A stretch of 47,574 nucleotides of DNA from assembly GCF_000497245.1 (NCBI RefSeq), contig NZ_AWTC01000023.1, positions 1-47,574 of the forward strand. Direction: 5' to 3'. Of the stretch, positions 11,106 through 14,488 are shown piece after piece. A program made the translations under genes and the position numbers. Within the stretch, counting starts at the first letter, position 1; each line of letters opens with the position of its first letter. The notes beneath the pieces are model-generated. The model did not search any database. It had not been told where the DNA came from and worked only from the letters and a program-made list of their open reading frames with translations. The stretch comes from Sporolactobacillus laevolacticus DSM 442. Its GTDB lineage: Bacteria; Bacillota; Bacilli; Bacillales; Sporolactobacillaceae.

Positions 11106-11135
11106 TTGTTAAATTGTGAACAAATTGTGTATATT
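11106..11135 (+). promoter_or_regulatory. promoter with an overlapping Rex-like operator
   Basis: TTGTTA (11106-11111) and TATATT (11130-11135) are 18 bp apart, upstream of the 148-residue gene. The -35 box begins TTGTTAAATTGTGAACAA (11106-11123), whose TTGTT/AACAA half sites resemble Rex operators (TTGTTAANNNNTTAACAA or TTGTGAANNNNTTCACAA). The centre is not symmetric, so the operator call is tentative. Confidence 0.35.
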
Positions 11136-11193
11136 TTTTGTCTGTTTTGTGATATTGTTTGTGCCAATGAATTCAAATAGAGTGAGGCATTCA

Positions 11194-11640
11194 TTGACAA
11201 TGAAAAGTACTTTTTTAAGCAAGCGCATGGGTATTACATTATTGGTTGCAGCAGCAATTGTTATTGCGAGTCTGGCTATTTACGGGGAAGTGGTCGACTA
11301 TAAGGCTACTCAGAGTATTAAGACAGAGCAATCTGTTGATCGTTATTCATTTCGAAGCAACAGAACAATTTTATTGCAATTAAAAAATGGTTATGTGATT
11401 CATTTAGATTTAAGTTCTGTTCCGCTGAACATCCAGCGTGGAAACAAGAACACACTTTATCGTGTTCCCGGTACTCTTTCTAAATATAGCGCCGCGAACA
11501 AAAATCGCGGATATGTTTTAACGTTGACACCAAAAGAATATAAATCGTTTAATGAGGAATTCTTAAATAATTATGGCCAAGCCGGAATGTTCGTACATAA
11601 CAAACAAAATCATTCTGAGTTGGTTTATGTTTCAATCTAG
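11194..11640 (+). CDS. hypothetical membrane-anchored protein, 148 aa
   Basis: I do not recognise this protein. It has a short basic N-terminus, one membrane segment (about residues 12-32, MGITLLVAAAIVIASLAIYG), and then an extracytoplasmic soluble part rich in K, N and S with no cysteine. The predicted topology is N-in, C-out. The TTG at 11194 has GAGG six bases upstream; the ATG six bases on (11200) is the alternative. Its frame continues upstream to 11116 without support. It has its own promoter and terminator. Its place upstream of the redox operon on the same strand may or may not be meaningful. Confidence 0.6.
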   Translation: MTMKSTFLSKRMGITLLVAAAIVIASLAIYGEVVDYKATQSIKTEQSVDRYSFRSNRTILLQLKNGYVIHLDLSSVPLNIQRGNKNTLYRVPGTLSKYSAANKNRGYVLTLTPKEYKSFNEEFLNNYGQAGMFVHNKQNHSELVYVSI

Positions 11641-11690
11641 GTTACAGCAATTATTATCATAACTAATTAAAATATCATGTACGATGTAGA

Positions 11691-11721
11691 AAAAAGAGTG
11701 CCATCAGTGCACTCTTTTTTT
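11691..11721 (+). terminator. terminator after the 148-aa gene
   Basis: An 11-bp stem AAAAAGAGTGC/GCACTCTTTTT with a 7-nt loop ends in a T-run. Confidence 0.85.
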
Positions 11722-11856
11722 GGTTAATTTTCATACCCCCATTCCAAGAAGAACTGTTCAAAATCCGCCCAAACGAAGTGAATCCAATTAATACGCAAAC
11801 CGTACCCTGCTTTCTCTCTTCGTAATTTCTCATCTGATTCTAATGATTTTTTCATT

Positions 11857-11871
11857 TTATAATTATTATAA
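11857..11871 (+). promoter_or_regulatory. PerR/Fur-family operator, exact PerR box
   Basis: TTATAATTATTATAA is a perfect 7-1-7 inverted repeat identical to the PerR box consensus TTATAATNATTATAA known from Bacillus subtilis. It differs at two positions from the Fur box TGATAATNATTATCA. It lies 48 bp before the ATG of the flavocytochrome gene and contains TATAAT sequences that could serve as the -10. AT-rich promoters can give chance matches, but an exact symmetric 15-mer is notable. The rest of the gap 11722-11918 shows nothing else clear. Confidence 0.6.
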
Positions 11872-11918
11872 TTACTTTGCATTCAAATGATTTTGTTACC
11901 ATTGGAGGAACACAGAAC

Positions 11919-13280
11919 ATGTTCAGACGACTCATGAGAACGATGATTTTGCTTGTCTATTTATTAAGCCCTCTCCCTGCAATCTTCATCGTCTATAAAG
12001 CAAATCCGCCTGCCTATCAAACACCAAAAGACTTATTACCTATGGTCATTGGTGCTATTGCTTACACTTGGCTGCTTGCAGAACTTGTGATTAGCGCTCG
12101 CCCAAAATTTCTTGAACGTTTCTTTGGACTAAATCATTTTTACAAATTTCACGGTAGCGCAGCGCTTGTCGCAATCGTTCTCTCATTTCTTCATAAACAA
12201 CTCGAAGAAGCCATCTGGTCGAGCTATCTGCAAACGGTTCGCCAATTAGGAGATCTGGCCCTTATCTTGTTTCTCGTTCTTGCGGGCCTCTCACTGATTT
12301 TTATGACCGATCTCATAATACGGAAAATAAACGTTCTTCATTTTATTAGGAATTGGTTGGAAAAAAAGCACATTCTCGACTTTAAATATAACGTGTGGAT
12401 ACACAATTTAAATGTGATCGCAATTGTTCTTGTGTTCCTCCATGTCTTTTACTTCAGCGCTTTTTATCGAAAAAATTTCTGGATATGCGGAGTGTATACA
12501 CTTTACTTTTTTATTGCTTTCGGCAGTTATTTCTACCATAAAGTGTTGAAAATTAAGCACGCCAAACGTCATCCTTATACTCTGATACAAATTACTCCCG
12601 AATCACCAATGATACATACATTTGTTTTCAAACGTGAACGGGGTAATGTCCCACATTACAAAGCAGGTCAATTTGTCTTTATTCGGATGCTTGGGGCCGG
12701 TATATCTGAAGAAGAACACCCTTTTTCAATAACATCCAACCCAAACGATCGTCGCTATCTGTCTGTCACCGTCAAATCAATTGGCGATTACACTTCTTTT
12801 ATTCCAAAAGTACCACTAGGGACCCGAGCAATAATTGAAGGACCCTACGGAATTCTCGGAAACAGTGTTTACCATACAAAGTCCGATCTTGTGCTCATTG
12901 CAGGAGGTATTGGCATTACGCCGATGCTCAGCATTTTGAAAGATCTCTGCCATCGGAACAGAAAACGCCGTGTTATTCTTTTTTGGAATGTTCCAAGCAC
13001 GAAAGATTTGATTTCCAAAAATGTATTTAATTACTTAATCGAACAAATGCCTAAATTTACTTTTGTTCCTATATTATCAAGAGAACCTAATAATAATGGT
13101 GAATCTGGCCACTTAAATCGTGAAAAGATTGTTCGTTATTTATCAGAACGTCGCTTTAGAATAAAACGTACGCATTATATCATCTGCGGTCCTTCAAGAA
13201 TGATGGATTCAGCAGTAAAAACGTTACGTGGGCTAAAGGTACACAAAAAGAAAATTCATTTTGAAAATTTTTCAATGTAA
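11919..13280 (+). CDS. ferric-reductase/NADPH-oxidase-like transmembrane flavocytochrome
   Basis: The 453-residue protein has an N-terminal ferric-reductase-like membrane domain (about six segments, residues 8-205) and a cytosolic FAD/NAD(P)-binding half. His78, His92, His162 and His175 form two pairs on two helices, spaced 14 and 13 residues apart, as expected for two stacked b haems. The FAD motif is HPFSITS (267-273), followed by GPYG (308-311). NAD(P) motifs are GGIGITPM (329-336) and a C-terminal CGPSRMM. It should pass electrons from cytosolic NAD(P)H through FAD and two haems to the outer face. The acceptor could be Fe(III), oxygen or the cytochrome-b5-like lipoprotein encoded 16 bp downstream. 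The ATG follows GGAGG by 10 bases. A PerR-box-like operator lies upstream. Confidence 0.87.
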   Translation: MFRRLMRTMILLVYLLSPLPAIFIVYKANPPAYQTPKDLLPMVIGAIAYTWLLAELVISARPKFLERFFGLNHFYKFHGSAALVAIVLSFLHKQLEEAIWSSYLQTVRQLGDLALILFLVLAGLSLIFMTDLIIRKINVLHFIRNWLEKKHILDFKYNVWIHNLNVIAIVLVFLHVFYFSAFYRKNFWICGVYTLYFFIAFGSYFYHKVLKIKHAKRHPYTLIQITPESPMIHTFVFKRERGNVPHYKAGQFVFIRMLGAGISEEEHPFSITSNPNDRRYLSVTVKSIGDYTSFIPKVPLGTRAIIEGPYGILGNSVYHTKSDLVLIAGGIGITPMLSILKDLCHRNRKRRVILFWNVPSTKDLISKNVFNYLIEQMPKFTFVPILSREPNNNGESGHLNREKIVRYLSERRFRIKRTHYIICGPSRMMDSAVKTLRGLKVHKKKIHFENFSM

Positions 13281-13296
13281 AGGGAGACACTCAACC

Positions 13297-14235
13297 ATGT
13301 TGTCGATGAAAAAAACAATTGTATATTTTTTACTCATAACCATGCTTATTCTGACAGGCTGCGAGAAACTAACCACACAGTCTATTGGCAAAACGGTACA
13401 TTCAAAAGCCGGACAATTACATTTAAATAAGAAACGCAAATTCACGCTCTCTCAATTAAGTACGTATAACGGTAAAAATGGACGTTCCGCTTATATTGCC
13501 GTAAAAGGAATGGTGTACGATGTAACCCATGCTCCCGATTGGCATAACGGAAACCATCACGGCGTTCAAGCGGGACAAGATCTTACAGCAGCGATTGAGC
13601 ACTCGCCACATGGAGCTTCAGTCCTTGCTGCTGTCCCCATCGTTGGTTATTTAGTGAATGAGCGCCCTTTGGCTACAAAACAACCATCGAGCGGCACGAC
13701 ATCCCCTTCAAAACAAAGTGATAAACGAACATTCACCTTAGACGCATTAAAGAAATATAATGGGCAGAATGGACAACCTGCCTACGTAGCCGTTAAAGGG
13801 AAAATATATGATGTGACTCATGCAGCCGGTTGGCATAATGGACGTCATCATGGGGTACAAGCGGGGCAAGATTTGACCACAGCAATTGAACGTGCACCAC
13901 ATGGCGTATCCGTCTTATCCTCCGTCCCGGTCATCGGCTATCTAGCAAACAAAAAAAATAGCGTTACAAATAAAAACATGACTAAATCAGCTTCAAATCA
14001 AAATAATCAACGAACATTCACCTTGGCTGCATTAAAAAAATATAACGGACAAAACGGGCACCCCGCTTATGTTGCTGTTAAGGGGAAAGTTTATGACGTG
14101 ACACACGCACCCGGTTGGCATAACGGGTACCATCATGGGGTACAAGCGGGGCAGGATTTAACTACAGCAATTGAACATGCACCGCACGGTACGTCTGTGC
14201 TCTCATCGCTTACCGTCATCGGATACTTAAAATAA
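13297..14235 (+). CDS. lipoprotein with three tandem cytochrome-b5-like haem domains
   Basis: The 312-residue protein starts with a lipoprotein signal ending in LILTGC (lipidated Cys22), so it should be tethered outside the membrane. Three repeats of about 70 residues follow (about 49-119, 146-216, 241-312). Each has YNGxNGxxAYxAVKG, VYDVTHA (or IYDVTHA), a WHNG-x-HHGVQAGQDLT segment and PHG. The conserved HH of the HHG and the His of PHG are likely axial haem ligands, as in bacterial b5-like proteins. Linkers of 25-27 residues are rich in T, S, K and N. The ATG at 13297 follows GGGAG by ten bases, and a second ATG is at 13306. It forms an operon with the flavocytochrome, which suggests that the haem domains accept its electrons. 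Confidence 0.85.
   Translation: MLSMKKTIVYFLLITMLILTGCEKLTTQSIGKTVHSKAGQLHLNKKRKFTLSQLSTYNGKNGRSAYIAVKGMVYDVTHAPDWHNGNHHGVQAGQDLTAAIEHSPHGASVLAAVPIVGYLVNERPLATKQPSSGTTSPSKQSDKRTFTLDALKKYNGQNGQPAYVAVKGKIYDVTHAAGWHNGRHHGVQAGQDLTTAIERAPHGVSVLSSVPVIGYLANKKNSVTNKNMTKSASNQNNQRTFTLAALKKYNGQNGHPAYVAVKGKVYDVTHAPGWHNGYHHGVQAGQDLTTAIEHAPHGTSVLSSLTVIGYLK
13441..14232 (+). repeat. three tandem copies of the b5-domain coding unit
   Basis: The units begin at about 13441, 13732 and 14017, a period of 285-291 bp. Copies 2 and 3 share long near-identical stretches such as GGGGTACAAGCGGGGCA, while copy 1 differs more at synonymous sites. This suggests an older and a more recent duplication. Confidence 0.85.
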
Positions 14236-14326
14236 CAGACACACCAGTAGGATAAATTTATTTGTAAACAAAACCATGTAATTATTATCTCGTATCATTT
14301 ATCTCATTGTTCTGTTTAAAACGTAT

Positions 14327-14372
14327 AAACGTCTGTTATTCGTTCTTATTTTGACGAATAACAGACGTTTTA
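14327..14372 (+). terminator. terminator of the flavocytochrome-b5 operon
   Basis: A perfect 17-bp stem AAACGTCTGTTATTCGT/ACGAATAACAGACGTTT with a 10-nt loop is followed by a short T-run. It also lies between convergent transcription units (tRNA-Arg is on the minus strand) and may act in both directions. Confidence 0.75.
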
Positions 14373-14415
14373 CATTGTATTCCTAACCCTACTTGAACGT
14401 TTAGACACTATATAA

Positions 14416-14488
14416 TGGCCCTGAGAGGAATCGAACCTCCGACGCACGGTTTAGGAAACCGACGCTCTATCCACTGAGCTACAGAGCC
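14416..14488 (-). tRNA. tRNA-Arg (anticodon CCT)
   Basis: The 73-nt cloverleaf has acceptor GGCTCTG/CAGGGCC, a D-arm AGCTCAGTGGATAGAGC, a T-arm GGAGGTTCGATTCCTC, and the anticodon loop TTCCTAA, which reads CCT for AGG codons. The 3' CCA is not encoded, so it would be added by the CCA enzyme. The base pair at 27-43 appears to be a T-T mismatch. Confidence 0.92.

Follow-up and report, generated by a model that had tools for sequence, protein, structure and literature searches.

The stretch of DNA analysed here (the window; 47,574 nucleotides from Sporolactobacillus laevolacticus DSM 442) encodes a flavocytochrome directly followed by a multi-haem lipoprotein (Table 1), and this gene pair is a real, conserved, and lineage-restricted variant of a known modular design for electron export, with a plausible peroxide switch and a lead towards iron. 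The best reading is that the pair follows the established combination of NAD(P)H, trans-membrane haems, and a tethered carrier, with b5 haems replacing the flavin used by its relatives. We consider it probable that the two genes form an electron-export unit repressed by PerR, in which the b5 haem lipoprotein serves as the carrier.

Table 1. Position of the gene pair and of the associated sequence features in the window
Feature	Position	Strand	Description and basis
Terminator-like hairpin 3' of the upstream gene	11689..11721	+	13 base pairs followed by a run of T
Exact PerR consensus box TTATAATTATTATAA	11857..11871	+	47 bp before the reductase ATG; consensus match
GGAGG ribosome-binding site of the reductase gene	11904..11908	+	Read from the sequence
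Flavocytochrome (reductase) gene, ferric reductase/NADPH oxidase superfamily	11919..13280	+	453 aa; Pfam, SpNOX profile alignment, family alignment
Cationic lipoprotein gene	13297..14235	+	312 aa; lipobox ILTGC, three cytochrome b5 domains
b5 domain 1 (aa 49-120)	13441..13656	+	H87 and H105 likely ligands
b5 domain 2 (aa 146-217)	13732..13947	+	H184 and H202 likely ligands
b5 domain 3 (aa 241-312)	14017..14232	+	H279 and H297 likely ligands
Strong hairpin 3' of the lipoprotein gene, probable terminator	14323..14373	+	-26.5 kcal/mol, z -7.2

The best start of the reductase gene is the ATG at 11919, with the stop codon at 13278-13280, and the open reading frame as listed reaches further, to a TTG at 11877. 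The C-terminal part of the protein consists of FAD and NAD(P)H domains (PF08022, PF00970, PF00175, and PF08030, all above the Pfam cut-off). The Pfam search gave no match to PF01794 (E 0.01), and surveys built on this family could therefore overlook a reductase of this kind. SpNOX is the closest solved full-length relative (E 6.2e-14, single-sequence search), and a profile from seven members of the reductase family aligns to it (8qt6, E 6.6e-41) with all four histidines in register. These residues (H78, H92, H162, and H175) are kept in 16 of 16 aligned family proteins and are likely the haem ligands, in bis-histidine positions that pair as 78/162 and 92/175, which bears out the preliminary description of a flavocytochrome with two such pairs. 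The histidine spacing (14 and 13) equals what we take to be that of NOX2. With the threshold set to 1.4, a hydropathy scan recovers five helices where six are expected, the helix bearing H78 and H92 staying under the threshold.

The lipoprotein gene follows after a gap of 16 bp, as had been described, and the three b5-like domains claimed for its product were recovered behind the lipobox as three PF00173 stretches (total E 9.8e-26, Pfam). The mature protein has a net charge of +17, and its domains are identical pairwise at 50, 51, and 62 of 72 residues. Among solved structures, the b5 domain best matches 6nzx (E 1.1e-19) and 6vz6; both axial histidines align with those of 6nzx, the nearest solved b5 relative and a b-type cytochrome (PMC7096707), and both positions are present in all three domains. 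The single-domain bacterial and archaeal cytochromes b5 of the 6nzx/6vz6 type have the same domain and both ligand histidines, but here three such domains stand in tandem on a lipoprotein that is paired with a reductase. The b5 domains are predicted to bind haem, which, being six-coordinate, would act as a carrier and not as a peroxidase. Since Ser, Thr, Asn, and Lys are abundant in the linkers, transfer between the domains would proceed by flexible contact rather than along a rigid wire. As far as sequence can tell, the domains, the histidine ligands, and the lipobox support the architecture proposed earlier, an electron pump combined with tethered haems.

According to the proposed mechanism, cytosolic NAD(P)H would reduce the FAD bound by the C-terminal part of the reductase, and electrons would then pass to the inner haem (H78/H162), the outer haem (H92/H175), and thereby the outer face of the membrane. 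The outer haem would deliver them to the b haems of the b5 domains, which are joined by flexible linkers, and the lipoprotein would carry them into the wall, to an acceptor for which the unit has no gene; the first candidate is ferric iron, followed by quinones or oxidised wall components. The lack of a terminal acceptor gene in the two-gene unit counts against the export reading.

SpNOX and other bacterial NADPH oxidases (8qt6; PMC5676040) belong to the same superfamily by profile and share the four aligned haem-ligand histidines and the FAD/NAD(P)H domain, but the reductase is distant from SpNOX in sequence, is paired with a haem lipoprotein of its own, and has a PerR-type box upstream. Because SpNOX, its closest solved full-length relative, produces superoxide (PMC5676040), the reductase might likewise make superoxide from O2 outside the cell, with the b5 lipoprotein diverting electrons from O2 or reacting with the superoxide. 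We regard this as unlikely, as all five genomes that encode the reductase have also kept a dedicated, tethered partner for it, and the related reductases have other redox partners. In addition, the position presumed equivalent to His-119 of NOX2, placed by NOX2 numbering and counted four past the second helix-3 ligand, is a Glu in the reductase, which argues weakly in the same direction. His-119 of NOX2 is conserved in NADPH oxidases (PMC3591440).

Conservation of the pair is strict but phylogenetically narrow. Among 196 relatives, the window's own genome included, five encode the reductase (E 1e-40), all of them Sporolactobacillaceae, and 20 encode a b5 domain (E 1e-6); wherever the reductase is present, the b5 gene lies adjacent to it, 13-17 bp away. 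To relatives named Sporolactobacillus, the reductase has 80% (STSJ-5) and 61% (S. kofuensis) identity. The lipoprotein varies in length, with three b5 domains in the window and in G012, two in G008 and G001, and one in G018, an incomplete genome (75%) in which both genes of the pair are frame-disrupted. Within the genus, four of 15 genomes have both genes and 11 have neither, and the pair is thus dispensable. Its neighbours differ: G012 has a serine-dehydratase-type gene there, G008 a SnoaL-like gene, G001 a gene of the VIT family (iron/manganese transporters), and G018 a LigB-type gene, which suggests that the reductase and lipoprotein genes travel together. A tRNA-Arg (CCT) gene is located on the opposite strand just past the pair (14416-14488), which, with the differing neighbourhoods in relatives, may mark an insertion site.

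Wider sampling did not extend this range. In a class sample of 398 genomes, the reductase was detected in seven (E 1e-18) and b5 in 20 (E 1e-6), with only the window's own genome having both; in the phylum samples, the reductase profile matched 12 of 398 genomes (E 1e-25) and b5 was detected in 26 of 356 (E 1e-8). Searches of the flanks (about 1.5 kb, or 4 kb for plasmids) with a b5 profile gave no match in any of the six class and 11 phylum reductase loci, whereas all six control loci with the pair were matched. Conversely, a reductase profile matched none of 30 class or relative, 29 phylum, and six plasmid b5 loci, a set that leaves out two of the listed b5 places; the motif first used recovers 11 of 12 control loci. 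Plasmid b5 genes occur in six records, five of which have annotated neighbourhoods without a reductase and the sixth of which is unannotated (PLSDB lists genes incompletely). In the class and phylum samples and at the plasmid b5 loci, no pair was detected outside the Sporolactobacillaceae; the search for it in relatives that the preliminary description had proposed thus shows adjacency in five of five reductase genomes, but a range limited to this family. A general Bacillales feature is unsupported by the class and phylum samples.

Several other settings of b5-like domains were observed. Many Bacillales (L026, L027, L030, L077-L083, and similar) encode proteins in which an N-terminal helical-looking region (MQNxExxRLQLNHLVTQARxDIYTLS) is combined with a C-terminal b5-like domain (AAATHFGLxAGKDYTxEFASCHAGQQ), and the L026-type proteins have no obvious signal peptide. 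A b5 domain is fused ahead of a DoxX domain in L113 (1495-2178, by Pfam) and, by resemblance, in L114, L128, and L137, and is found at the C-terminus of a TPP-enzyme protein in L124 (463-1749).

Hairpins are found before and after the pair, and the reductase and lipoprotein genes therefore look like one short transcription unit, with terminator-like sites in the scanned stretch not above chance (two seen, 2.4 expected). A promoter scan found no sigma-70 promoter at the PerR box (seven sites in the stretch, 8.9 expected). The small gene upstream of the pair (11116-11640) has no convincing Pfam family.

The exact PerR consensus box reported to precede the genes was confirmed in the sequence. The consensus searched for is the one given in the preliminary description. 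TTATAATTATTATAA is the sole match in the window at up to two mismatches (shuffled sequences contain 0.36 on average, and at least one in 32 of 100 cases). When the 278 bp preceding the reductase gene (11641-11918) were shuffled 20,000 times by dinucleotides, no exact box turned up, and a box with at most one mismatch did so 16 times. The sister strain G012 has the box with one mismatch, inside a block of 51 identical among 58 alignment columns. In the other three pair-bearing genomes, no box was found (best 3, 5, and 5 mismatches in 467, 210, and 236 bp), so that it is retained in two of five. Across whole genomes, the number of boxes with at most one mismatch does not exceed that of a reversed control pattern (6 vs. 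5 in the window's genome; 5 vs. 6, 5 vs. 5, and 3 vs. 8 in three relatives), which counts against PerR control.

PerR itself is encoded in the window's genome (L064, to 2fe3 with E 1.6e-71), which has five box sites besides that of the pair. A one-mismatch box lies just before a Dps-type ferritin gene (PF00210), as it does in G012, and another between a P-type ATPase gene and a divergent VanZ-like gene, an arrangement shared with two relatives; of the other three, one precedes an ABC transporter gene, one separates a transposase-like gene from an unknown gene, and one falls within a glycosyltransferase-like open reading frame. The four other boxes of G012 are at the Dps and ATPase genes, before a thioredoxin-reductase-like gene (PF07992), and inside the open reading frame of an NlpA-type lipoprotein. 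We take these genes to correspond to Dps/MrgA, ZosA/PfeT, and TrxB, the assignments resting on Pfam or annotation. The peroxide or metal control claimed previously thus draws support from the PerR gene and from the one-mismatch boxes at the Dps-type gene and beside the P-type ATPase gene, but not from the distribution of the box, which only two of five pair genomes have. Taking into account the control counts as well, we consider PerR control of the pair likely in two species but not established across the family. PerR would bind the box and repress the unit, and derepression would follow from peroxide or from a lack of metal in PerR.

Related reductases have other partners. A reductase match was found in 559 plasmid records, the best 20 of which are from Lactobacillales (26-30% identity), and the neighbourhoods of eight of these best 20 were inspected together with a chromosomal one (L019, G476). 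In seven of the nine (L015, L016, L145, L147, L148, L150, and, by Pfam, L019), genes for FMN_bind and ApbE proteins are located just before the reductase, and in L149 only a piece of ApbE is annotated. A plasmid of Leuconostoc suionicum (L146, 1077-3757) instead encodes, in a row, a PerR-like regulator with PerR as its closest PDB chains, a DyP-type peroxidase, and a reductase of the same family. This peroxidase has no evident signal peptide, and a PerR box with two mismatches at 1046-1060 is no more than expected by chance for the locus.

In a 16-row tree rooted at the midpoint (a 14-row version was also built), the four b5-type reductases and five related ones (four FMN, one DyP) are separated from seven others by a branch with 99/99 support. 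The b5-type four form a group of their own (support 90/77 at the fork as drawn, 100/100 when set against the labelled rows), joined to the flavin group by a long branch (1.64). Outside the family, the reductase of G212 comes closest both in path length and in single-sequence identity (35%), and it has neither a flavin nor a b5 neighbour in its flanks. The long branch and the closeness of G212 count against the tie to the flavin type. The topology fits an exchange of acceptors, but establishes neither its direction nor its occurrence. We thus propose only tentatively, with somewhat less than even confidence, that in the Sporolactobacillaceae a flavin-type export module may have replaced a covalently flavinylated carrier with a lipoprotein of one to three tandem b5 haem domains, resulting in a peroxide-induced, wall-reaching b-haem conduit that would require neither c-type cytochrome maturation nor ApbE.

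The closest described counterparts are the MsrQ-like flavinylation systems, in which a trans-membrane protein with two haems, frequently carrying an NAD domain at its C-terminus, likewise feeds a tethered extracytosolic redox protein (Meheust et al. 2021, PMC8238504). The pair differs from these in having a multi-b5 haem lipoprotein as the partner and in lacking a match to PF01794, the marker used in that work (PMC8238504). Neither FMN_bind nor ApbE was recognised among the open reading frames around the pair. The earlier statement that no system with this architecture had been described is therefore too broad, since trans-membrane haem proteins that feed a tethered flavin protein have been (PMC8238504), but it holds in that the haem acceptor differs. 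PMC8238504 proposes an interchange of flavins and cytochromes in general, and a text count did not find the term 'cytochrome b5' in it; nor is a pair of reductase and b5 lipoprotein named in the titles and abstract openings of the openly licensed PMC papers that the literature searches listed.

As a special case of electron export, the unit could reduce Fe(III) at the cell surface, either for uptake or for iron management in peroxide stress, a possibility to which we give somewhat less than even odds. In G001, a VIT-family gene (PF01988, E 6e-67; L005, 3028-3711) precedes the reductase gene by 171 bp in the same orientation, and VIT-family genes and FetB adjoin two of the flavin-type related reductases, so that both kinds of module share a neighbour. 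Some MsrQ-like clusters likewise include VIT1 and have been tied to iron reduction (PMC8238504), and a Dps-type ferritin gene is among the other box-bearing genes. However, only one of the five pair-bearing genomes has an iron-type neighbour; the neighbouring genes inspected in the window, G012, G008, and G018 include none that could be recognised as such.

Haem for such a unit could be made in the window's genome, where HemB and ferrochelatase are encoded, but in G012 the pair occurs without a HemB match, which argues against a simple haem supply there. Three of the 15 genus genomes (G003, G005, and G012) lack a HemB match, and all 15 have ferrochelatase; early haem synthesis has possibly been lost in these three. 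The non-covalent binding of haem by b5 domains and the HemB-less but pair-bearing G012 would also suit a function in haem acquisition, with the lipoprotein catching haem at the surface and the reductase reducing it for uptake. Yet three of the four pair-bearing genus genomes have HemB, and G003 and G005 lack HemB and the pair alike, showing that the pair does not track the loss of HemB, and none of the neighbouring genes inspected was recognisable as one for a haem transporter. We consider haem acquisition improbable, and of the readings discussed the least credible; electron export remains the preferred reading.

Extracellular electron transfer by fermenting Gram-positive bacteria has been described mainly via flavin carriers (PMC8837199, PMC8238504). 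The FLEET system likewise operates in fermentative Gram-positive hosts with a redox carrier outside the membrane (PMC8837199), but it includes ndh2 and pplA, and neither these nor apbE were recognised beside the pair. G012 additionally has a FLEET-like locus encoding a double FMN_bind lipoprotein, ApbE, and an Ndh2-like oxidoreductase. Judged by the length of the open frames, double FMN_bind genes of the FLEET type are found in one of four pair genomes vs. six of 11 others. The names Ndh2 and PplA for the G012 locus are our presumption, based on resemblance. In the window's genome, two FMN_bind matches are in short, single-domain proteins. The two FMN_bind genes are located beside NQR2/RnfD-family membrane protein genes (L144, 1-1920, and L090, 1246-2660), one of them also with ApbE, and this genome thus carries flavin-type extracytosolic electron transfer as well.

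If the export reading is true, a haem b carrier that varies in length while serving a related pump would make clear that such carriers can be exchanged, and the pair would represent a two-gene system for multi-haem electron transfer outside the cell that dispenses with cytochrome c maturation. If PerR control also holds, a lactic-acid spore former would couple the export of electrons to its peroxide and iron defence.
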